From Linnemannia hyalina (taxonomy: Eukaryota; Mortierellomycota; Mortierellomycetes; Mortierellales; Mortierellaceae): a stretch of DNA of 64,000 nt. Where the stretch lies: positions 62,001 to 126,000 of the forward strand of contig JAHRHY010000025.1 of assembly GCA_019671135.1 (NCBI GenBank). Reading direction: 5' to 3'. The notes beneath the pieces were generated by a model. The model made no database searches. It was not told where the DNA came from and saw only the letters and a list, made by a program, of their open reading frames with translations. Each line of letters begins with the position of its first letter. Positions within the stretch are counted from its first letter, which is position 1. The translations under genes and the position numbers were made by a program. Shown piece after piece: positions 28,016-40,172 of this stretch.

Positions 28016-28085
28016 ATCATATCATATCATATCATATCATATCATATCATATCATATCATATCATATCATATCATATCATATCAT
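28016..28085. repeat. Pentanucleotide microsatellite (ATCAT)14
   Basis: Fourteen perfect ATCAT units, beginning about 95 nt past the 3' end of the XPG-Fanzor reading frame. Confidence 0.95.
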
Positions 28086-28155
28086 ATCGTCAAATTTTAC
28101 TTATGTCAAGGGTATCCCTTCGTCCGTCATTAGTCATTGACAGACTAGGATAAAA

Positions 28156-28167
28156 AAACTATAGTTT
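28156..28167. other. 12-bp perfect palindrome at 3' end of XPG-Fanzor gene
   Basis: AAACTATAGTTT, 14 nt beyond the stop codon of the minus-strand reading frame. A second CTATAG follows at 28172-28177. It is noted because TnpB/Fanzor guide RNAs usually lie at or beyond the 3' end of the nuclease gene. Function unknown. Confidence 0.35.
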
Positions 28168-28180
28168 CAATCTATAGAGG

Positions 28181-31100
28181 TTATGGGCTTTGCGGCGACG
28201 GTCTTGCAAGGGAAGGGGGGCGTCCGAGATGCTTAAGGTAATGTTTGCCGATGATAGCAATGTTGTGCGCACCCACCAAGTCTCGGTGAATCCACCGCCT
28301 GCATTTCACACACGCACAGGTTCTCATCGAGGGCTTAGCAAGTCTTGTCGTCTCACCCTTGGAAACGCAGGTTGGGCACATTGTAGATGTAAGATATGCA
28401 TCCACTAACGCTACCTTGTACCCAAGGGCCATGCTCTATCAATTTTAAAAAGGACAAATGAATTAATATACTTGTGTATCCAGATCGCCATGGTATTGAA
28501 GGGACATACGATACTAGTAGATACGACCACCCGTACATCGTCTTTCTACTCTCTCCTTTCTCATTATTACCTTCTGCTGTAGTCTGCGCAAGAACGTCGT
28601 GTGGACCGATGTAAGGTTGAACCCTGTCCGAAAAGTCGCGTTTCCCAACGCGAAGAGGACCCTACGCCCTCCCATTGGGTTACTCTTCAATGCTTCTTTC
28701 ACAAGTCGGAGCACGCCTGCCACCGCCATGTCCATCTCTGACAACTTTGCCATTCTATGTTGGTATACGGCCTTCTTCCAGTCCGACGATGAGTAGAATC
28801 CATGAATGATCGGCTCCAACTCGAAATACTGCCGTTGCGCGGATTTGAGGGCGTCCTCTGAGTCGTATTTTGTTGAATGGAGCGCATTCTCAAGATCATG
28901 CATCGAAGGTAGAAAAGTTGCCCTGTTCTTGTCATCCGTCTTCCTCGTCCAAAGGCTCGCGTCGACATTATCTGCGGGACCGGCTGCTGGGTGTTGTCGC
29001 CTCCATTCCTGTTCCCATGCTCTGAAGGCGAGTGTTGGCTGATACAGTGATGCGCGCTTTACCAACAAGTTGACCACAGTTTTGTCATCGAGACGCACAC
29101 AGAACGCACCGCTCACGACTTCGCCTGGATCGATGCCAATCACCGCCACCGACTCCAAGTCTTGACCGAATGCTTCAATTATCGACTGTCGGGTTGGGTA
29201 CTGGTTCTCGATACGTCGTAGAAACTCCTTACGACCCGGCGCCTGCCGACTCTTGGTGAGGTCATAGGCCAAAAGTTGCAGCTGATGGCCGTCCGTGCGG
29301 ATGAAATTGTTCAATGCATACCGAAAGGAAGACTGTGCGCCTTGGATGTGAGGAGGGGTCGGCAATAGTGGGGGGTTGGAAGGCGGCGGCACTGCAGATG
29401 CTGAAGACGATGACGACGATCCGGCCGAGATGGATGCATTGTGTCGGGTTCGGTAATAGTTAATTCGATCTGTCAGGTGTCGTGCAAGTGGTCCTTGGTC
29501 ATAGATGGTGGGGTGGGCAGCCTTGAGTTCACTCATTGTAGCACTTCGTTTCCCGTATGTTGTTTGTTGTTTGTTTGCGAGCCGAACCGTATTTCGATCT
29601 CCAATGAAAAGCATCTTGATGAGGTTCCCGAATGACGTATTGACTTGTAGGTTGGCCCAGTCGTGGCTATGAGGGCTGCCGCTCCAAATCAATCCGACTT
29701 GACCTGCATCTCTTCCCCAAAGGATACGCATCAGTCCCTCCTCCCTAATGTCGATAAAGCTGTCTGCCATCTTGGACTGGGTACAGAAACGTGGTCGGTT
29801 TGCCGCTGGAAGTGCCATGAGATAGTTCCAGCATGATCGGATGTGTCCAGGCTGATAGACAATTTTTTTCGACTTTTTCCTGGGGTTCTCATCATCGGCA
29901 TCATCGTCTAGAATAGTACCGTCATCGTCTAGAGTAGTGCCGTCATCACCAGGTTTGTCTTCATCCTCCTGTTCGACTTTTGGAAGTAGGGCGGGATCGA
30001 ACTCCAGCTTCTCCATCTATTTTATTGCAAAAAGAAAAAAAGGCACAGTATTAGAATATGCAATACACTCTCTCCAATTATCAATGGCGCTTCATCAACG
30101 AATTGGGCGATTAGTACCTTTGTGCGTATAGTCTGTGGGAGCTTCTTGTAATGCAACTTCATAGCCAAACAGATCTTGGGCGCCAGATCATCGATGACAA
30201 CACCGAGGGGTATGCTGGATGGGTTAACAGCCTTGAATCCCGGATGGAACCCCTTGAAGGCCGCAAAAATCGACACTGCCTCCGCCTGTGCTTCCTTCGA
30301 CTTTGGCTTGTTGGCTGTAGGTCCTAGTGCTTTTGTCGAATCTCGGAGAACAAACGACAACAGATTCCCAATAACAATCTCTGCCCAGTCTGAATCCAGA
30401 ATATCCTCCAGAAAGGACGTCGGCGGCGAACTAGAGAGTAGCTCTCCAAGGATCCGCATTTCAAGCATCTTGTAGACAAAATGCTTGGCAGTATTGACGA
30501 TAGACACAGCCATATCAAGTCTCTGAGCAACCATGTCGACGTTCGCCGGGGTGAGATCGGTAGCTCGTTTCAGGCACCCCTTGACTGATCCAGTGGTAAG
30601 TGTGACAGTGGCGAAAACAGACTTGAATGACTTCTTCAGAGCAGCATAACCAGGCCTGTCCTGGTGATAGTCAAGATGCTTCTTCTTCTTCTTTTTCTTG
30701 GCTACAGGGGCAGTGGCAGCTTGTTCGTTGGTGGTAGCGGGATCCTTTGGCTTGTATGGTCGAGGGGTTGATGGTTTCAGACCAGACAATTCTACGTCCT
30801 CGACGGGGCTGGCGTTCTCAAGGTTGACCGTTTGGGGTACGTATCGATCTGCTTGATCCGTCCGGGATCGGAATCTAGAAATAAACGCGCCAATGTTATG
30901 AAGAATAATATTAGTACAGAAGTAATAGAAGTCAATACAAGTGGCTGGATATAACTGAAGATGACGCTAAAAAGTACTTACTTTGTCCTCTGCCATTTCT
31001 GCCTTCTCCTTGACCGGGCGCGTGAGCCATGGCGCATTTCTTGTTTTCTACTCTTTTTGTAGAGTGGAGGTGCTTGGTCGATAATAGGTGTGGGCGCTGA

Positions 31101-32673
31101 TGGTCCTGTATGTGATGTTTGGCTCCTTGAGAAACGCTCCCAGTTGGTCTTCGCCTTTTTCATCTCAACTTCCTGAATGATAGTCGTGACAAGGCTGTGG
31201 ATATCGGGTGTGCTGGAAGTCGTTTCGGTCCCACCCATAGGTAAAGGATGCTCGGTGCACATCACGAACGCCTGAAGGGCATGATCGAACTGGCTGTCTT
31301 TTACGTTCTTCTGGTACTGAGTTATCCCGACCCTGTTCAAGGACCTTTTAGCGTGTTTCTTATACAGTTGCCTGTGTTTCCCATATTGGAGGTAGGACTC
31401 CTCTGCGATCTCCTGGAGCTTGTGGGCGCTGTCGTATACAATCTTCAAGTACTGAATGACGTGGTGTTTGAATTGTCCAAGTCGCTCCTGGTCGCTCAAT
31501 CCGTCGAGTCCGTCCAATGTAAACGTCCGAACAATGTCAGCGTTCGACACCAAGCCATAGTAAGGAACGCCGTCGGTATAGTCGTTTGTTGTTAATATAC
31601 CAAGAAGAAGAAGGTGGGCTGGAGTGGGGAGCTGGTGTCGATCCATAAGGTCCTGCTTCTGGAATGTTTTCCACTGACTGCCGACAGGAATAGTGATCGA
31701 TGTAGAGGCCTCATAGACCAACAAGTCAGAGTCTTTGGTGATGATTCGTACATCCTCCGGCTTGACGGCATTATTGAGACAACGGGCAATACAGCAGTCG
31801 GCTTGGTGGGGGCAGCGACATATTGTCCACCCCAGATTCTGAAGAGCATCCAGCACTTGTCTCGCGGCATCGGGTGGTGCCCGATAAACAGACTTTAGGC
31901 GCCGGTATAGCCGTTTCGTCCCTTTGATCTTGTCTTCGTCGTAGTCCTCCATGAGTTTTCTCATCCGCGTTGTTAGATCACGGTCCCGTTTCTGATGGGC
32001 GTGCTCTTTCTCGACCGAACGGGGACCGTCGGCATGGATTGTTGTGCGCCCCTGTGAGACTTTTTTCGTGAGGATGTCGTGAATAACCTGGCCTATGTGG
32101 CCATAGTCCTATTGAAAACACAAAGCAATGAGATAGTATTAGGTATATTTCTTACAGCAGCTTTGTCTTTGCCGGTTGTATTTGAAAATCGAATGTACTT
32201 ACAATGCCTTTGTTTTCGGTACGTGTTGTTGTGAGAGTACCATTGCTGTCGAGAAAGATCTGAGCTGGTCCTCCTTGCAGTAGGTGTTGGACCTGTGTCA
32301 TAAGGGTTGTCGGAACCGAGCCAGGAGGGATCGCAACAAACACAGGACCGGTCGATGTACTTGTGCCTGAGGGAGCTCCCAATGTGAGGCGAGCATGTTT
32401 GATGGATGGACTCCCCGACTCGGTCCCCTCAGACCCAGATGGCGAATGTGGATGTTTTTGTTCGCCTGGTACGTTGGTAGCGACAGTTGTTTTTAGTGAG
32501 TAGTGCAGTCGGGCCTGCCTGGCTTCGATGCTGACGGTTCCGTAAAATGCACGCGAGTTCAACAGGGCGAAAAACATCGCCGGAAAGTCCACATGGCATG
32601 TTTTTTGGGTGAGATCTTCCTCGATTCCGTCGGAGGCCTCCTTGATCCATGAAGGAAGGACACTGATTCCCAT
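28181..32673 (-). CDS. XPG/FEN1-like nuclease fused to Fanzor/TnpB-like RuvC nuclease
   Basis: Five exons, 32203-32673, 30982-32108, 30118-30874, 28571-30016 and 28181-28435, close in frame as 1,351 residues. N terminus: XPG_N (MGISVLPSWIKEASDG; HVDF Asp 29; HADGPRS Asp 184), interrupted by a roughly 110-residue Ser/Thr linker, then XPG_I with HQADCC (Gln 259, Asp 261), KDSDLL (Asp 283, Asp 285) and NDYTDGVPYYG (Asp 333). These match FEN1 metal carboxylates, except that the first Glu of the EAEA/EADA motif is Gln. A basic stretch ends this module (RARSRRRQKWQR). C terminus, from about residue 560: helical Fanzor N part, acidic linker, FIRTDGHQLQLL, RuvC-I VIGIDPG (Asp about 1080), ALGNATFRTG in the RuvC-II strand (no Glu there), zinc ribbon CPTC...CVKC (about 1287-1312), and RuvC-III HRDLVGAHNI (Asp about 1319). 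Fanzors are eukaryotic RNA-guided DNA nucleases related to TnpB; XPG proteins cut flap DNA. The combined function is unknown. Confidence 0.78.
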
Positions 32674-32960
32674 TCTTGAACTATGTTAAGAAAAGTGTGA
32701 GAGCTAGTGTGAGTCTTCTTGCTTGATAAGTTGTGAAAGGGTATAATGAGTACTGTTCGCAATCACATCCAGCATCGGCCTTACAGAATGGCTGTTGTGG
32801 GTTGCTTCGAAAGGGTGTGGCGAAGATATATGTAAAGTAGTATGTAGGTGGATGTGGAGGAATAGGTGGATGTGGAGGAGAGTGTGAGATGTGAGGTGTG
32901 CTGAGGAGAGTGTGGTTAGAGAGGAAGAAAGAAAGAGGGAAGAAGGAAAATGGAAGCGGG

Positions 32961-32968
32961 ATTTTATA
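32961..32968 (-). promoter_or_regulatory. Candidate TATA box of the XPG-Fanzor gene
   Basis: Minus-strand TATAAAAT about 290 nt upstream of the ATG at 32673. It suggests that the gene has its own promoter and is not a passive insertion. Confidence 0.4.
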
Positions 32969-33100
32969 GGAAAAGTGGGCAGTGGAAAGGACAAAGGCTT
33001 ACATGTCGAGACCACTATCACTCAATCATCACACACAAGCGATATAATCTATACCATTCAGGAACAAATCGCCAAAACAAAAGCCCAAAAATAACCTGAC

Positions 33101-33714
33101 ATTTCCACGATAACTTGCTTCATGCATACCGTGGATGATGGTCACCATCACAAACACCTTTTGTCTCTTTCATATCTCCTTCATGTCTCTTTCATGTCTC
33201 TTTTTGGTTCTCTCATTGTCCCTCTCTTTTTTCTTTTCGCCTCTCTCTCTCCCTTTCTCTTTGTTTCCATATCATGCAGCAAGAAACCATTTCCACAATA
33301 ACCTGCTTCATGCATACCGTGGATGATGGTCACCATCACAAACACCTTTTGTTCTCTCATTGTCCCTTTCTTTTTTCCTTTCGCCACTCTCTCTCCCTCT
33401 TTGTTTCCATATCATACAGCAAGAAACCATTTCCACAATAACCTGCTTCATGTATACCGTGGATGATGGTCACCATCACAAACACTTTTTGTTCTCTCAT
33501 TGTCCCTTTCTTTTTTCCTTTCGCCTCTCTCTCTCTCCCTCTTTGTTTCCATATCATACAGCAAGAAACCATTTCCACAATAACCTGCTTCATGCATACC
33601 GTGGATGATGGTCACCATCACAAACACCTTTTGTTCTCTCATTGTCCCTTTCTTTTTTCCTTTTGCCTCTCTCTCTCTCTCTTTGTTTCCACACCATGCA
33701 GCATGAAGTCACCA
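33101..33714. repeat. Minisatellite, about 140-bp unit, four copies
   Basis: Units start at 33101, 33289, 33429 and 33571. Each begins atttccac.ataac.tgcttcat, then taccgtggatgatggtcacc and atcacaaacac, then a CT-rich half ending near catgcagcaagaaacc. Copies 2-4 are 140-144 bp and nearly identical; copy 1 is 188 bp because of internal CTTTCATGT repeats. There is no coding potential common to the copies. Confidence 0.92.
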
Positions 33715-33993
33715 AAACAATAACCCAAGAGTTTATTGTGGAAATGGCAGGGCTATGGTTTTGCTTCAAAAAAAAACAAAAAAAAAGGCCTGTTTTATTC
33801 GTACCTTGGGTGATGGTCAACATCGCAAACCATATTCTCGTTTTGCCTCTCTCATTGTATCTCTGCTTCTCTTGTTGGCCCTTTGAGCCCCTATTATCTC
33901 TCGCCCATATACAAAAGCACACACAGTAAACTAATAACGAACCTTAAGTCAACCACACATTTGCACACTCATCACTCTACACTCTCCTGGAAC

Positions 33994-35461
33994 AATAGCG
34001 TCAACCATATCCGCCTTTATCAAGCTGACTGAACTCGTCACGACGCCAATCTAGGCCAAGTCTGCAACGTCCGCAAATTTCTTTGAGCTCGAAACACTCC
34101 CCAACATCAACATCCACCATCAAGATGTCACCATCACCTCCCGATGTCAGCCCCCAATCAACAGACGGATCATTAACCAGATTGTGCTGCTCAAACGTGA
34201 TGGGCGCACTGAGCGGGCGTATTCTGCCCGCCCTAGTCATTACTAACCATCCTTCGTCCCGCGACGCCAAGTATGCAACCTCTATCCGAACCCAAGGAGC
34301 GCGCCTAGAAACTATCGCAGACCTCGAGGACACTTATGGTCGTCGAGCTTGCGAGAGCAATCTTTGCTTCGTAAGTATATCTGCGATTGTGGCGATTTCT
34401 GTTGGATGGGCTACGAATTCGTACTCACCTACCGTTCACCTCTGCTTTCGGCAATTCTTTGCATCTTTTGCAGGACCAAGAAAAAGCCTGAGAGGATATT
34501 ACTCTACCTCAACAGAGTCTCGGAGGGTCAGTTTGTGCAAGCCCACCAAGTCGAAGTGGATGCCATTCGGTCGGCTTCCAAGAAGCTACAAGTTATGTAT
34601 GCTCCCAAGTGCCACTTTTGCCCCAAGGCTGCCAGGCCCCAGGTTGTCCAGGTTATGCGAAAATAGGCTTTGTCCTAGTTCCGTTGAACGCGCCATGGAT
34701 TTCTGATATCGTCACGTGACTTTCGCCAGCTGACCATTCAAGATCCCAAACCCCAAGCCCCGTCTAATGTCCTAAGCCTCGTCCAACATCCAAGCCCCGT
34801 CCAATGTCCAAGCGCCGCCTTGGTTCCTTCTGTTCATTCGGCCCTTAGCATAAATAAACCCCTTGTTCCCCTGTCTTGTTCCCCAGTCTGCAATAACTCA
34901 CTTGCATCTGTCCCCTGCCTTACTTCTGCACACTCTTCGTATTCCTTCCTTTTCCTTCATAATAAAATATAACAAAAGCAATACACATTCTTCCAAGTCC
35001 TGTCTGACCATTGCACCAAGATCACGTCTGTCGTAGTCCAGAAGCGCCATCACAATCTCTTCTTTCTAATGCAGAAGGGCCAGGCCGATCGATCGGGAAA
35101 CTGTCCGCCCGGAACTGTGGTCGACACTGGCATTGTTCATCCATTCCAATTTGATTTTACTTCCAGTAGCAAGCGGGTCTGATTGGAACTTCGAGACCTG
35201 CCCTCCACAACGTTCTCTGCGATGGGAGCTGATTTACGTCGGACAGTCTCCAGACTCTAACCTACAGACTATGCTACCTGTATGCTCGATGCACTCGATC
35301 CGTCTCTATGGTTTCTGCGGAGTACTATGCCCACCTGGTCGCGCAGCGAGCACGTTTCCACCAAGGGCGTCAATTGGAGCAAGGCCACGCCTTCGGAAGG
35401 ATTGGGTGAGTCGATTACCTACGCGCCCGTAAAGCAGCAGCTTCAGAAGGGTATGTTATAA
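33994..35461 (+). pseudogene. Argonaute pseudogene (N domain and PIWI remnants)
   Basis: Pieces of one Argonaute lie in order on the + strand but in shifting frames. (1) 33994-34246: N domain, with KLTELVT, GQVCNVR, then NFFELETLPNINIHH, TITSRCQPPINRRI, ending at TAA. (2) 34247-34370: start of the PIWI half, HPSSRDAKYATSIRTQ and ETIADLED, then a frameshift into MVVELARAIFA. (3) An intron with GTAAGT and TTTTGCAG borders. (4) 34471-34609: KKKPERILLYLNRVSEGQF, where the catalytic RDG is changed to LNR. (5) From 35021: VVVQKRHHNLFF, DRSGNCPPGTVVDTGIVHPF, a frameshift plus two in-frame stops, [31 protein letters not shown] (catalytic His kept), and a C-terminal YAPVKQQLQKGML. The region between N domain and PIWI (PAZ, MID) is missing. 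At the expected start the codon reads ATA. A solo LTR splits pieces 4 and 5. It is non-functional as read. Confidence 0.85.
34610..35015. mobile_element. Solo LTR inside the Argonaute pseudogene
   Basis: A 406-bp block begins TGCCAC and ends ATTGCA, flanked on both sides by the 5-bp direct repeat CCAAG (34605-34609 and 35016-35020). Removing the block and one repeat rejoins the Argonaute PIWI reading (APK before, ITS...VVVQKRHH after), so it is an insertion. Inside are a TATA-like ATAAATAAA (34850-34858) and AATAAA (34961-34966), matching the U3-R-U5 order of an LTR on the + strand. U3 holds imperfect 20-bp repeats (ccaagccccgtccaatgtcc) at about 34750-34812. No internal retrotransposon sequence or second LTR is present, so it is a solo LTR left by recombination. 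Superfamily cannot be assigned. Confidence 0.85.
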
Positions 35462-35997
35462 ACGAACCGTGCTAAGACGTTGAAGAGATATCTACATGGC
35501 AGAAAGCTGACCCTTTCGTCTTGCTTTGCTTTTTCTGGTGATGTGGTTTATGTGAGCCCGGCCCTTCAGCCATTTGCTACCCTTGCTTGTCTGCAACCGC
35601 ACTCGTGCGACCTCCCTTCCCCATCGCCCACAATACCGATTGGCTTGTTTTGAACTACATTTCGATAAAAAATAATGCAAGTTAACGATGGGTGTCCGTG
35701 AACGTTGGCTGGTTGTGACCACCGCGTCCGTGTATTGATTTTTATTTTTTTGCTTTATGAGGAAGTGAAAGAATTATAAGATGCTTGTGGAGACAAAGAG
35801 CTTTTCAAAAGGCTAAAACCAAAAAAAAAAAGAATGACTGTCCACAGTGTTTTAAGCGTTGGCGAGTTCAAGAAAAAAAGAAAAAAAAAAGACGCTCTCT
35901 ATTCCTCAAGGGGTTGTTGAGATCAATCAGTCCTTATCATAAGCGAGGCCTGGTTCCACTGTTTAGTGCGATGGTCCCTCGTGATTGTTCGACTCTA
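35462..35997. other. Intergenic between Argonaute relic and lipid-droplet-type gene
   Basis: No gene recognised. A-rich stretches lie at about 35818-35832 and 35873-35892. Open frames are short and lack family features. Confidence 0.45.
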
Positions 35998-36677
35998 TTA
36001 GCCGTTGGCTCGTCGACCGCCCTTATTAGCCCTCTGCTTGGCCTCCCGGATCTGTCGCTTAGCCTTGCGCAAGTCACCATGTCCCCAGATCATACTTAGG
36101 ACTGCACAGGAAAGGAGGTACCCGACATAGGCGACCATGCTGACCAACCCGACGCCGCAGGCAACCAGCAGCGAGACTCCCAAGGCTGGGAGCAGGAAAA
36201 CCAAGCTGAAAATTGCGAATCCTACCTAAACAGAGATAAGGTGATGATTGGCACATGTAGATGATGATGGGTTAGGGTAGGGAGTTTCGGATCAGTTTCG
36301 TCTATCAGGCTTTGGTATTCGAGTGCGTATTATCATTGTCATTGTGCCAAAGAAACATATCTCACTTCAACAATGGTAAATCCAATCCCTCCAACGACCA
36401 AGGACCCAAGGGTGACAAACCCCATGAAGCCCATGAAGCAGCCCAAAGGAAAAGCCGACATGGCTCCAAACCCAACGACCCCAATCTTGACACTGGTGGG
36501 AGCTTGGACATATAGATTCTTGAGGTATCCCGCGGGAGGGAAAACATAGTGCTGGACTATACCCATCTGGTTGACAGACTCCAGTGCCGATTGAGCTTTG
36601 CTGGCGACGATCTGGGGGGTTTCATGGGTGGCGTCTCGGGCTTGGTCGACTTGTCGCTCGATGTTCGTTGTGGCCAT
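35998..36677 (-). CDS. Small hydrophobic membrane protein, promethin/LDAF1-like candidate
   Basis: Two exons, 36366-36677 and 35998-36225 (140-nt intron), give 179 residues. The N-terminal half is soluble (MATTNIERQVDQARD). Residues about 80-155 are four hydrophobic stretches rich in Gly, Phe and Val (VGVVGFGAMSAFPLGCFMGF, LGSLVVGGIGFTIVE, FAIFSLVFLLPALGVSLLVACG, VSMVAYVGYLLSCAVLSM), followed by a short basic tail (RKAKRQIREAKQRANKGGRR). This size and double-hairpin pattern resembles promethin/LDAF1/Ldo proteins, which act with seipin at ER-lipid-droplet contacts. Assignment is by pattern only and is tentative. That it is a real gene is well supported by phase, length and composition. Confidence 0.7.
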
Positions 36678-37129
36678 GGTGGGTGTTGGTGGTAACTTGC
36701 GATGGTTTTGCTGGGGTGGCAGTGACTGGAGGAGAAGGATGTGTGGGGTGAGGCTAAAGCAGCGGGATTGCGTTGAAGAGACAGACTCGGGTGGTGATAC
36801 TGGTGCGTGAAGGGATGTGGATAGAAATAGTCAAAATGGAGGCGATCGTTGACCGTGTTGCAGTTGAAGGGGTGGAAAGAGCAGAAAGTGGGAAGAGGAA
36901 GTGAACATGAGAGCTGAGAAAATTATGGTTACCTACGATATCCAAGTATTACTTGCATTGAGGGAAAGTGATGAGAGATCGGAGCATTTCTAAAAATCAA
37001 GTGCGATAGAGGCAATAGATGCGTCGTGTTGAGACATTACGCGTTGATTTGTTATCTTTAGAGCACGATAAAGAGAAAGGCAAGATAGAATCTTGAGGGC
37101 GGAGAGGCAATAAGGAGATCACGAGGACT
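36678..37129. other. Upstream flank of lipid-droplet-type gene
   Basis: No gene recognised. It is the probable promoter of the minus-strand gene ending at 36677 and the decayed tail of the XPG-like relic beyond its donor-like site near 37130. Confidence 0.4.
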
Positions 37130-37589
37130 CACGTCGAACCTAATCTGGGATGGCTGTGTCGCCAGCAATCGCTGTATGTCTTCAACGAGAGTCGACGAGC
37201 CGGAGCTGGAGGGGTCGGAGGCGTTTGTTAGAGGAAGCAGTGTCGGCGATGTCCTCATCCTCGACGTCAACTGCTCGTTTTGGACTGCATGAAGCCTGCT
37301 GTGTAGATGTTGTTGTGTGAGTAGACATGCCCGCGTCATCGTCGTCGGTTGCTCGCTCTGGGCCGGATGAAGTCTGCTGTGTCGATGTTGTTGCGTGGTT
37401 AGACATATGACGTCAGGCCGACTTTGCAACGAACTGCACCGTTTCATGGAAACTCAGCGCGTTCACCAACGCAAAAAACATCGATGATAAGTTGACTTCG
37501 CATCTCTTGGTCTGATCTTTCTTCACTCCGTCTGTCGCCTTGATCCAGCGCTCTTCTTTTTTTCCTTTCTGTCTTGGAGTCAATTTCAT
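37130..37589 (-). pseudogene. Degenerate second copy of the XPG-like N-terminal region
   Basis: On the minus strand, 37413-37589 encodes a 58-residue frame containing RWIKATDGVKKDQTKRCEV and NLSSMFFALVNALSFHETV. It aligns with the start of the XPG-Fanzor protein (SWIKEASDGIEED, CHVDFPAMFFALLNSRAFYGTV) and ends at TGA. The same frame resumes as a Thr/Gln-rich linker holding two 78-bp tandem copies (about 37248-37403), then SNKRLRPLQLRL, matching the linker of the intact gene. A shift into another frame gives DIQRLLATQPSQIRFD, against HLLQGGPAQIFLD. A GTGAGT follows at about 37133, near where the intact gene has its first donor. The metal Asp (HVDF) is Asn here (EVNL), and the MGI start has been replaced by MKLTPRQKG. 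No XPG_I or RuvC part is present nearby. Confidence 0.78.
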
Positions 37590-37954
37590 TTATGGAGGTT
37601 GATTCAAACTCTCTTATTTTGAGTGAGAGGCGTCTGAATTGTCCAAGGGTTTTGACAACATTATCTTTTATGAAGGCTCGGCTCTGAGACTATTTTATCC
37701 ACACTTATTGTTTTGCCTGTCCATCTCGCTGACGTTTAAAAGTGAAGGAAAAGTGATAGGAAGATAAATTGATATGGAAGTTCCTCTCGTGGTGGTTCCT
37801 CTTTTTTTATGTGACGGAGTGGGTGCTCTCTGTGTTTTTTTTTGTAAATATGGAGAGGACCCTGCTCGCAGAATCAATCGAAGGGATAAATTTCGACCAC
37901 AAAAGCGGTCGAAAACAGACGAAGGGTATAAAGCGCTGAACAATGGAAAGTTAA
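37590..37954. other. Intergenic before DOMON-b561 3' end
   Basis: No gene recognised. It lies 5' to the XPG-like relic and 3' to the cytochrome b561 gene. Short frames only. Confidence 0.4.
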
Positions 37955-40172
37955 CTAGAGCCGATTGTAGTCATTGTCTTGAGAAGCATGCACACCATGA
38001 GTTTGCAATTCATACGGCCCTTGGTTCCCATGGTTACCATTACACCCTCCGCCTCCATGTCCGCCATGTCCAAGGTAATCATCGCTAACTCCGCTACCCC
38101 TCAATGGCCTCGCGCCTTCAGTAACACCATCCTTCCTCCGGTCACTCCAAAGCTTCAACAGCGACCCGATTCCAAACACAGCGACAACCAACACAACCAC
38201 CCACACATAATACAGATACCACACAGCCTCCTTCCCAGTTGGCCAAAGTCCGTACAACCTCATCCCCAAATTCACCTGCACGATCCCTAAGATCAGGACA
38301 GTGTACCCCCAACAGCGATGGACCCACGTTGGGATCCGGACGATCGCTGCTTGGCGTGTTCGTGAAGGGTCATACTTTGTGAAAATAAAGACCCCGACGA
38401 TCACCTGAAGGACTAAGGCGCCGACAAGAACAAGCCCGACGATTGCGTGGGTAGAGTAGACCATGGGTGCGCCATTGTTGAGGGAAGAGGACTTGGCGAG
38501 CGCGGCAAGGATACAGCCAAAGGCTGCAAGGACGGTGAGGAATCCTGTGACTTGGAGGGGTCTGTGCCATTTGAAGACATGTTGAAGATGGCTGAAGAAC
38601 CGGACCAGCGAAGCTCCCAAAGGGAAAATGATCAGGAACGCCAGGGCCATCATCACCGCTGCAAGGGAGAAGGTTTTGTGCCCGTTCGGAGAATTCAGAT
38701 GATAAACATTGTCAGTGACAAGGTTGGTAATAACATAGAAAAAAGAAGGGTGAATGCTCAATTGAGGCGGGATAGAACGCATAATCCAGGGACAACAAAA
38801 AAAGGTTCTTGTGGCCTTGGCACCTTATTTTGACCAATGCTCATCAAGGCCAACAAAAGCAAAGACAAACGTACCATGGACTTTGATGAGGGTATCAATC
38901 TGCTCCTGCGTCTCCAAAATTTCTTCAACGTTTGGTGACGTACTCCCTCCGCCATTGCTACCAGTCCCAGGAGTATGTGTCGCACCAGGAACCGCACTCG
39001 CCGTCGTCGCCGTTCCATTCCCTGCGCTGGCCCCCTCCTTCTTGGTAATCTCCAAGGATCCAAATCCGGTAAACGTGTGCTGCTGAATACTCGCCTTCTG
39101 TGGGTCTCCTCCTGCGCCCGCAACGACGGGTTTGAGTCCTACAGCATAGATTATGTGGACTGATGCTGCAGTTGCGGCGATGGGGGATGTGGCGAGATTA
39201 AGGGGTCGAGAGAAGGTGCAAGTGAACCGCTTTGGGGTGGCGGTGGTGATGAATCCGGATTTGGGGGTTTGGATCTTAAACGCGGGCGGGTTTGTCAGGG
39301 GAGAAGGGGGTCCGTTCATGGTTGCTGATCTCTGTGAGACTATTGCTCCTGTTCCTGCTGCGTTTGCTGGCCAGCAAATCTAGGATGTGCAAAAAGAAAG
39401 AATATGCTTGCGTTTAGGTCTTTCCTTCACCTCATGTCGCTCACGTTGCCCTTGACTTCATTACTCAACGAAGATAAATGACTGTAGTAGTTGTAACGAT
39501 AGAAAAAAAGACTTACGGCGAGATCGTTGCCAGCCATGCCACCAGCCTGTCCACCAATGCCCATTCCAACCCAGCCAACAGAATCAATCTGAGCAGACAG
39601 CGAGAACTCGATGGTGGTGCTCTCCTTTGAGAACACCGTTGCAGTGATGCAGAGTTGTGGCGAGCAGAGTTGCTGAGCCTGGACTGTTGAAAGTGCTGCT
39701 AGGGCTATACATTATTATTTGTTGGTGGTAGTGTGGGGGTTTTGGAAAGTGGGCAATTTAGTTATGTTTACAGGTTGAGATGATAATTAAATTGGCATGA
39801 GAAAGGGGCAAGGGTCCATCTCGCAATTTGTTTTTGTTTGTTAGAACCAACACAAGCACAAAAAATGGGCGGTGCCTACGAGGAAAGGACGAAGGAAAGG
39901 AAAGGTGTGCACTCTGACCAGAACAAATAATGCTTCAAAGATGGAAGCAAACAATCGAGAACCAACGTACTGTACAACAGCCAATTTCTGGGGATTTGTG
40001 TGCCAACGCTTTTTTTTCCCCTTCTTTGCTCCGACCTTTTTCGGTGTTTGTCAAGCTAGACAGTCTAGGAAGTACAAAAATCCGTTATAAATAAAAGAGG
40101 AGGACACGTACCCAAGAGGGCTGAAAAGCCGAAGGTGGCCTTGAGCCTCGCAGTGCTAGTAGGAATGTACAT
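37955..40172 (-). CDS. Secreted-pathway DOMON-cytochrome b561 protein (ferric reductase-like)
   Basis: Four exons, 40112-40172, 39517-39704, 38875-39379 and 37955-38658, give 485 residues in phase. A signal peptide (residues 1 to about 31, ending in STVQAQ) spans exons 1 and 2. A DOMON domain follows (residues about 32-200: CITATVFSKES, VGWVGMGIGGQAGGMAGNDLA, FTCTFSRPLN), then a Thr/Gly-rich linker. The b561 core has membrane helices carrying the four expected haem His: KVHAVMMALAF, FKWHRPLQVTGF, YSTHAIVGLVL and WVHRCWGYTVL. DOMON-b561 proteins pass electrons across a membrane, in fungi to iron or extracellular acceptors. The usual HG after the first haem ligand is HA here, exactly at the exon 3/4 junction. 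The C-terminal tail is Gly/His-rich (GHGGHGGGGCNGNHGN) and could bind metal. Confidence 0.88.

Follow-up and report, generated by a model that had tools for sequence, protein, structure and literature searches.

A transposon gene of Linnemannia hyalina predicted to join an XPG/EXO1-type nuclease domain to a Fanzor in one protein

The Fanzors characterized to date cut DNA via a RuvC site, and the available portions of their published descriptions mention no second nuclease domain, including in front of the Fanzor chain. A Fanzor with an additional domain is described from another fungus, Parasitella, although the FRI domain of this protein (PpFz1) is an insertion in RuvC that binds cyclophilin and not an N-terminal nuclease (PMC11423790). 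The pairing of an RNA-guided cutter with an exonuclease, Exo1 included, is found in engineered Cas9-exonuclease fusions, which are man-made and Cas9-based (PMC9450370). Here, we describe a natural, transposon-borne gene in a 64,000-nucleotide stretch of the genome of Linnemannia hyalina (contig JAHRHY010000025.1; the whole stretch is referred to as the window) that is predicted to encode an XPG/EXO1-type nuclease domain followed by a Fanzor. In 5.39 million open-access papers we found no fusion of an XPG/FEN1-type domain with Fanzor or TnpB, nor one from Mortierella, with subscription papers and supplements lying outside this search.

The gene consists of five minus-strand exons between positions 32673 and 28181, which join into 4,056 nt, corresponding to 1,351 codons and a stop, with no internal stop and with GT/AG borders at all four introns:

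Exon I, 32203..32673, minus strand: residues 1-157, which open the XPG/EXO1-type domain (MGI, D29) and include an insert of low complexity.
Exon II, 30982..32108, minus strand: residues 158-533, the final codon split with exon III, with the XPG/EXO1-type core (D184, K191, R198, HQAD from 258, DSD from 283, NDY from 332) and a linker.
Exon III, 30118..30874, minus strand: up to residue 785, the N-terminal part of the Fanzor half.
Exon IV, 28571..30016, minus strand: residues 786-1267, Fanzor half including RuvC-I D1081 (GIDPGE).
Exon V, 28181..28435, minus strand: residues 1268-1351 and stop, with the TNB zinc ribbon and the RuvC-III HRD; position 1280 is Ala.

An earlier note, made from the letters of the window, had read this locus as an XPG/FEN1-Fanzor fusion, and the family profile, predicted structure, PF07282 match, and relatives described below support that reading. 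Its five-exon model without a phase error is borne out by the same structure in nine sibling copies, and each of its motifs is present (IGIDPGE, CPTC...CACVKC, and HRDLVGAHNI, together with the XPG signatures MGI, IHADGPRSVEK, ITKDSDL, and NDYT). A DNA search found near-identical copies of the element to be numerous in the L. hyalina genome. When 12 copies were compared, the window copy among them, 10 agreed in all exon lengths and had undamaged splice sites and only the one stop at the end, the remaining two (C22a and C22b) being broken. Across the gene region, the nine full-length siblings are 99.3-99.6% identical to the window copy. The L035 family, ~53% identical over the whole protein, has four introns in the same phases as the window gene (0/2/0/0), according to an exon model built from splice-site scores.

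The N-terminal half shares with the XPG/Rad2 nucleases (EXO1, FEN1, XPG, and GEN1) the predicted fold, the MG N-terminus, six of seven conserved acidic residues, and Lys and Arg at the spacing of FEN1. Unlike these enzymes, it is predicted to be fused to an RNA-guided nuclease, and in the window protein and close relatives a long insert follows its opening portion. For the window protein by itself, Pfam gives an XPG match only below threshold (XPG_I_2; E 0.044; 13.7 bits versus a cut-off of 24.2). A family profile was built after this result, from an alignment (A3) in which the insert was omitted from the rows of group 1, the group of relatives that includes the window protein. Compared with PDB sequences, this profile matches EXO1 (7.9e-16, positions 1-274), Rad2, XPG, and FEN1; 34 of its 35 matches up to E 1 belong to the XPG family, the remaining one being CarA at 0.25, and no XRN is among them. 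Three fusion loci of a second group (group 2) pass the XPG_I cut-off of 24.9 bits by themselves, at 33.7, 31.4, and 25.2 bits, as does the protein P0015 (26.0), with P0010 falling slightly below it (23.5).

The AlphaFold2 model of window residues 158-449 has a predicted local distance difference test score of 89.7 and gives structural matches to FEN1 and EXO1, and the predicted structure has the fold of the FEN superfamily. The 5' exoribonucleases XRN1 and XRN2 are also matched, at structural Z values of 14.1-14.4 for the relative P0016 and 10.3-11.4 for the window exon, below those of EXO1 and FEN1. Six acidic positions of the metal site and the Arg at +14 never vary among the 10 N domains aligned, and the Lys at +7 is present in nine. 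A seventh acidic position, equivalent to FEN1 E158, is Glu in all four group-2 N domains aligned and Gln in all six of group 1, a further departure from the XPG/Rad2 nucleases. The XPG/EXO1 assignment thus rests on the family profile, the predicted structure, and the three group-2 relatives above the XPG_I cut-off.

The C-terminal half shares several features with Fanzor1 proteins (SpuFz1, GtFz1, and PpFz1): the RuvC DPG, the TNB zinc ribbon, the HRD, carriage by a transposon, a structural match, and a 3' tail that is possibly an omegaRNA end with terminal inverted repeat (TIR) and target-site duplication (TSD). It differs from them in that ~500 extra residues with an XPG/EXO1 fold precede it. 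The zinc ribbon of exon V is matched by profile (PF07282, TNB; 2.9e-10, 40.6 bits versus a cut-off of 26.3). The C-terminal Fanzor motif of Bao and Jurka, D-X(125-275)-[TS][TS]XX-C4-X(5-50)-RD (PMC3627910), is found at D1081, T1283 S1284, C1287/C1290/C1309/C1312, and R1318 D1319, and GIDPGE at RuvC-I is common to the window copy and its nine siblings. In the group-2 relatives L029, L036, L057, and L059, DLG, DAG, or DGG replaces the DPG of Fanzor1, with the alternative RuvC-II Glu kept; the literature sets such forms apart from Fanzor (DPG). A profile of the C part finds TnpB, Fanzor, and Cas12 chains, for the most part through their TNB region, and a phmmer search of PDB sequences with one Fanzor fragment (L031) gave no match.

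Structure prediction of a full chain, proposed in the earlier note, was carried out on the full-length relative P0016 as one chain. Fanzor and EXO1 structures match separate ranges of this model, a good part of whose Fanzor half is modeled with low confidence. The model aligns to nearly the whole SpuFz chain (28-633) and has a Fanzor fold, and its region equivalent to exon III is mostly covered by the alignment to SpuFz and PpFz.

The domain order recurs beyond L. hyalina. Three protein searches, the second with a whole-fusion alignment and the third with a group-2 XPG query, returned 5, the same 5, and 12 proteins, every one from genera of the Mortierellaceae (the first two scored only ~8,000 candidates, and the fusion may thus occur more widely). 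Precomputed PF07282 matches are present in two of the five and eight of the twelve, several of the models being short or truncated and not all of them complete fusions. The independently annotated 1,321-residue protein of L. gamsii (P0002) is 76% identical over 97% of the query and keeps the XPG core and RuvC-I, its model ending within the zinc ribbon; that of Entomortierella parvispora (P0003; 1,313 residues, 52% over 100%) has a Fanzor half complete to its end and skips ~50 residues of the XPG core. Each supports the domain order, and neither model is flawless. In Podila verticillata, P0010 carries precomputed PF00867 and PF07282 matches in one protein, and group 2 includes an in-frame fusion of 1,348 residues with its own splicing, as modeled here.

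Within the L. hyalina genome, a six-frame search for TNB found 91 loci, many with internal stops, and at least 62 of them have an XPG-type match on the same strand and at most 8 kb upstream (two N-domain queries), where a rough estimate gives an expectation of about one. We dropped the idea that loci unmatched in the first pairing lack the XPG domain: of three inspected, two hold it by profile (and were paired in the second pass too), and the third is a fragment. Distances among 17 members are correlated between the N half and the C half (r 0.924; 0 of 5,000 permutations); L030, which lacks a joined C part, was left out of this comparison, which L031 and P0014 entered without trimming at the RuvC anchor. 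The branching of group 1 is the same in the N and C trees, with the placement of P0016, P0017, and L029 within group 2 differing. The two halves share one history. From their sequences, L032 and P0012 are probably the same gene.

The fusion gene is carried by a multicopy, Tc1/mariner-like transposon with a TA target duplication and short TIRs, whose 5' end was compared in 7 copies and 3' end in 11, window included:

28113..37930, minus strand: whole transposon with TA duplications; TIR to TIR 28115-37928, 9,814 bp, with boundaries common to copies with differing flanks.
37918..37930, minus strand: 5' TA duplication and TIR; TATCCCTTCGTC in six other copies, TATACCCTTCGTC in the window copy.
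28113..28124, minus strand: 3' TIR and TA duplication; GACGAAGGGA followed by TA, identical in all 11 copies compared.
28113..28180, minus strand: 68-nt tail after the stop, running to the TIR and TA; candidate 3' end of an omegaRNA scaffold.
28085..28112, minus strand: predicted guide source of the window copy, the flanking DNA right past the 3' TA, by analogy with published Fanzors (PMC10432273, PMC10711439).

The element thus begins with TA and TCCCTTCGTC and ends with GACGAAGGGA and TA, with one inserted A at the 5' end of the window copy. A different 5' piece of ~410 bp, beginning TATCCCTTCCTTCG, is present in copies C23, C50b, and C6 (L021-L026); it is MITE-like (resembling a miniature inverted-repeat transposable element), has its own TATCCCTTCC TIR, and is joined to a 5'-truncated fusion element. 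These three copies look like composites that combine a small element's 5' TIR with the fusion element's 3' TIR, and they were apparently mobilized as single units.

Several other features lie in or next to the element. A Piwi-domain fragment (34247-34666, plus strand; Pfam Piwi 30.8 bits, cut-off 28.9) is located within it on the strand opposite to the fusion gene; it was probably captured from an Argonaute gene and might feed RNA silencing. Upstream of the fusion ATG, also within the element, is a minisatellite (33203-33707; 140/142 bp, 3.6 copies) whose arrangement varies among copies, and the 5' part of the element holds a small open reading frame (ORF; 36339-36830, minus strand) with no Pfam match above cut-off. 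A cytochrome b561-like ORF (37955-38824, minus strand; PF03188, 4.6e-9) ends ~25 bp outside the element's 5' boundary, and a perfect (ATCAT)n microsatellite of 14.6 copies (28016-28088) lies immediately outside its 3' end.

The 68-nt 3' tail, with omegaRNA-like fold potential and ending in TIR and TA, is a new feature of this locus. Yoon et al. predict that the TIR and TSD lie within the Fanzor1 omegaRNA scaffold (PMC10711439). The window tail folds at -20.2 kcal/mol (z -3.61; 0 of 200 shuffles equally stable) into a CTATAG hairpin followed by a UAUCCU/GGGAUA stem around an 8-bp hairpin, the terminal GGGAUA including the TA. Five other group-1 tails have a similar layout (z -0.90, -2.49, -1.84, -3.60, and -1.19), the stems differing among families (CTATAG/CTATAG, AAGACC/GGTCTT, CAACAT/ATGTTG, CTGCG/CGCAG, and CTCCG/CGGAG). 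MAFFT misplaced two of seven tails, so hairpins were tested individually in place of a covariation table; no Rfam family matched at its gathering score within the window. The tails of group 2 are longer; three of them carry, close to the probable end, a UUCG hairpin and GCGCCCATTGTCC, and the three folded reach z of -4.07, -4.86, and -2.90. Because of this tail motif and its inverse upstream of the L036 gene, the group-2 fusions appear to occupy another kind of transposon. Elsewhere, L060 (contig 8, 536429-536661) is a ghost-like remnant of a decayed Fanzor 3' end that keeps a tail stem, TATCTC...GAGATA, with a compensatory change of a paired C-G to U-A.

TnpB has a peel-paste-copy role in the life of its transposons. 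For the fusion we propose, giving the idea even weight for and against, that the transposon gene encodes one 1,351-residue protein, an EXO1/FEN1-family 5' nuclease domain and then a complete Fanzor, which recuts the empty site with an RNA guide and trims 5' ends, leading to homologous copy-back. Transcription through the 3' end would yield an omegaRNA, its scaffold closing with the TIR and TA and its guide being flanking DNA. After excision by a Tc1/mariner-type transposase supplied in trans, the ribonucleoprotein would bind the empty site, with a target-adjacent motif expected to end in TA, and RuvC would cut it. The XPG-type domain would then degrade or flap-trim the 5' strands at the break, favoring recombination over end joining, and homologous repair forced from a copy still bearing the element would restore it. 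SpuFz1 leaves 5' overhangs (PMC11423790), a substrate open to a 5' nuclease; among Cas9-exonuclease fusions in Pichia, positive rates were highest for those with Mre11 and Exo1 (PMC9450370).

The ORF, its conservation in copies, the assignment of both domains from profiles and predicted structure, the two ends of the transposon, and the capacity of its tail to fold were observed here; transcription, RNA guidance, and both nuclease activities are predicted. Several points weigh against this proposal. Recutting and resection are drawn by analogy. The alternative RuvC-II Glu lies six residues ahead of the zinc finger (PMC10711439). This position, 1280, is Ala in the window copy and Glu in nine of nine full-length siblings, so the RuvC of the window copy is probably inactive, a further difference from Fanzor1 that makes this copy a poor candidate for cloning. 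We rejected the view that RuvC is inactive throughout the subfamily, the Ala being limited to the window copy. With its cutting step probably lost, the window copy would rely on sibling proteins or act only as a guided end-trimmer. No transposase was recognized in the element by Pfam on five of its ORFs, unlike in Tc1/mariner-type elements, with which it shares the TA duplication and short TIRs, and none of 58 DDE_3 matches falls inside the window copy. It was therefore probably moved in trans and is, by its ends, at most a non-autonomous Tc1/mariner-type member; a search for an autonomous partner by DDE_3 and the TIR pattern, which was not exhaustive, matched no transposase to these ends. At the tblastn level, 29 of the 91 TNB loci lack an XPG-type match, the only one of them inspected being a fragment, and none of the annotated group-1 proteins found has a complete model. 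The P0016 model is of low confidence over much of the Fanzor half, with a root-mean-square deviation to Fanzors of ~18. Two of the six group-1 tails have weak z scores (-0.90 and -1.19), and the upstream tail hairpins are singly non-significant (shuffle P 0.08-0.29).

The Gln at the E158 equivalent may weaken the XPG active site in group 1, the window protein included, and raises an explanation that we consider unlikely, though worth keeping in sight: the XPG-type half could be kept for nucleic acid binding or RNA processing, such as omegaRNA maturation or the holding of an R-loop, and not for DNA end resection, leaving group 1 with a weak nuclease or none. The presence of the XRN exoribonucleases among the structural matches is in keeping with this, yet EXO1 and FEN1 outscore them in fold, the profile does not find them, and the invariant metal-site acids and Arg and the nearly invariant Lys, together with the Glu retained in the four group-2 domains aligned, speak for a nuclease. 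FEN-type enzymes act on flaps, and the fusion seems to be housed between transposon ends of two or more kinds; the XPG half might thus serve transposition itself, on flaps or gaps from excision or integration, with the Fanzor half recutting independently in the same polypeptide. This we judge improbable: host enzymes fill the short gaps of cut-and-paste TIR elements, and such a role would leave fusion to an RNA-guided protein in particular unexplained.

Old fusions decaying into functionless transposon remnants would account for the active-site change in the window copy, the two broken copies, and the stops within many TNB loci, but the ten intact frames and the near identity of the nine siblings make this very unlikely. 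Over 45 pairs of intact copies, the ratio of nonsynonymous to synonymous differences (pN/pS) is below 1, at 0.31 for the Fanzor half and 0.43 for the XPG half, the latter a sign of moderate constraint only, and the pairs are non-independent; against the L035 family the ratios are 0.33 and 0.51, with synonymous sites saturated. Finally, the fusion transcript is predicted, exon IV begins with ATG in the window copy, L031, L033, and L034, and the annotated L. hyalina protein P0001 begins at residue 125 and reads into intron 4, as could be expected of neighboring genes for two separate proteins joined by prediction only. We give this the least credence of all: the frame is open across all junctions in 10 copies, single annotated proteins span both halves in other genera, exon IV begins with Leu in the splice-score model of L035, a start at exon IV would cost the Fanzor half ~250 residues, and group 2 has its own in-frame, separately spliced fusion.

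An EXO1/FEN1-class second nuclease domain in the same chain, conserved across a family, would be a new architecture for RNA-guided nucleases, and, if true, a single-chain cut-and-resect machine would be nature's equivalent of the engineered Cas9-exonuclease editors. Natural editors biased to homologous repair could come from the fusion family, which also offers a direct test of how Fanzors benefit transposons, namely whether coupled resection drives copying. Tentatively, and with somewhat less confidence than in the mechanism itself, we suggest that the Mortierellaceae evolved such a machine once, long ago, channeling every break made at an empty site into homologous copying of the element, and that dozens of diverged versions of it now reside in one genome.

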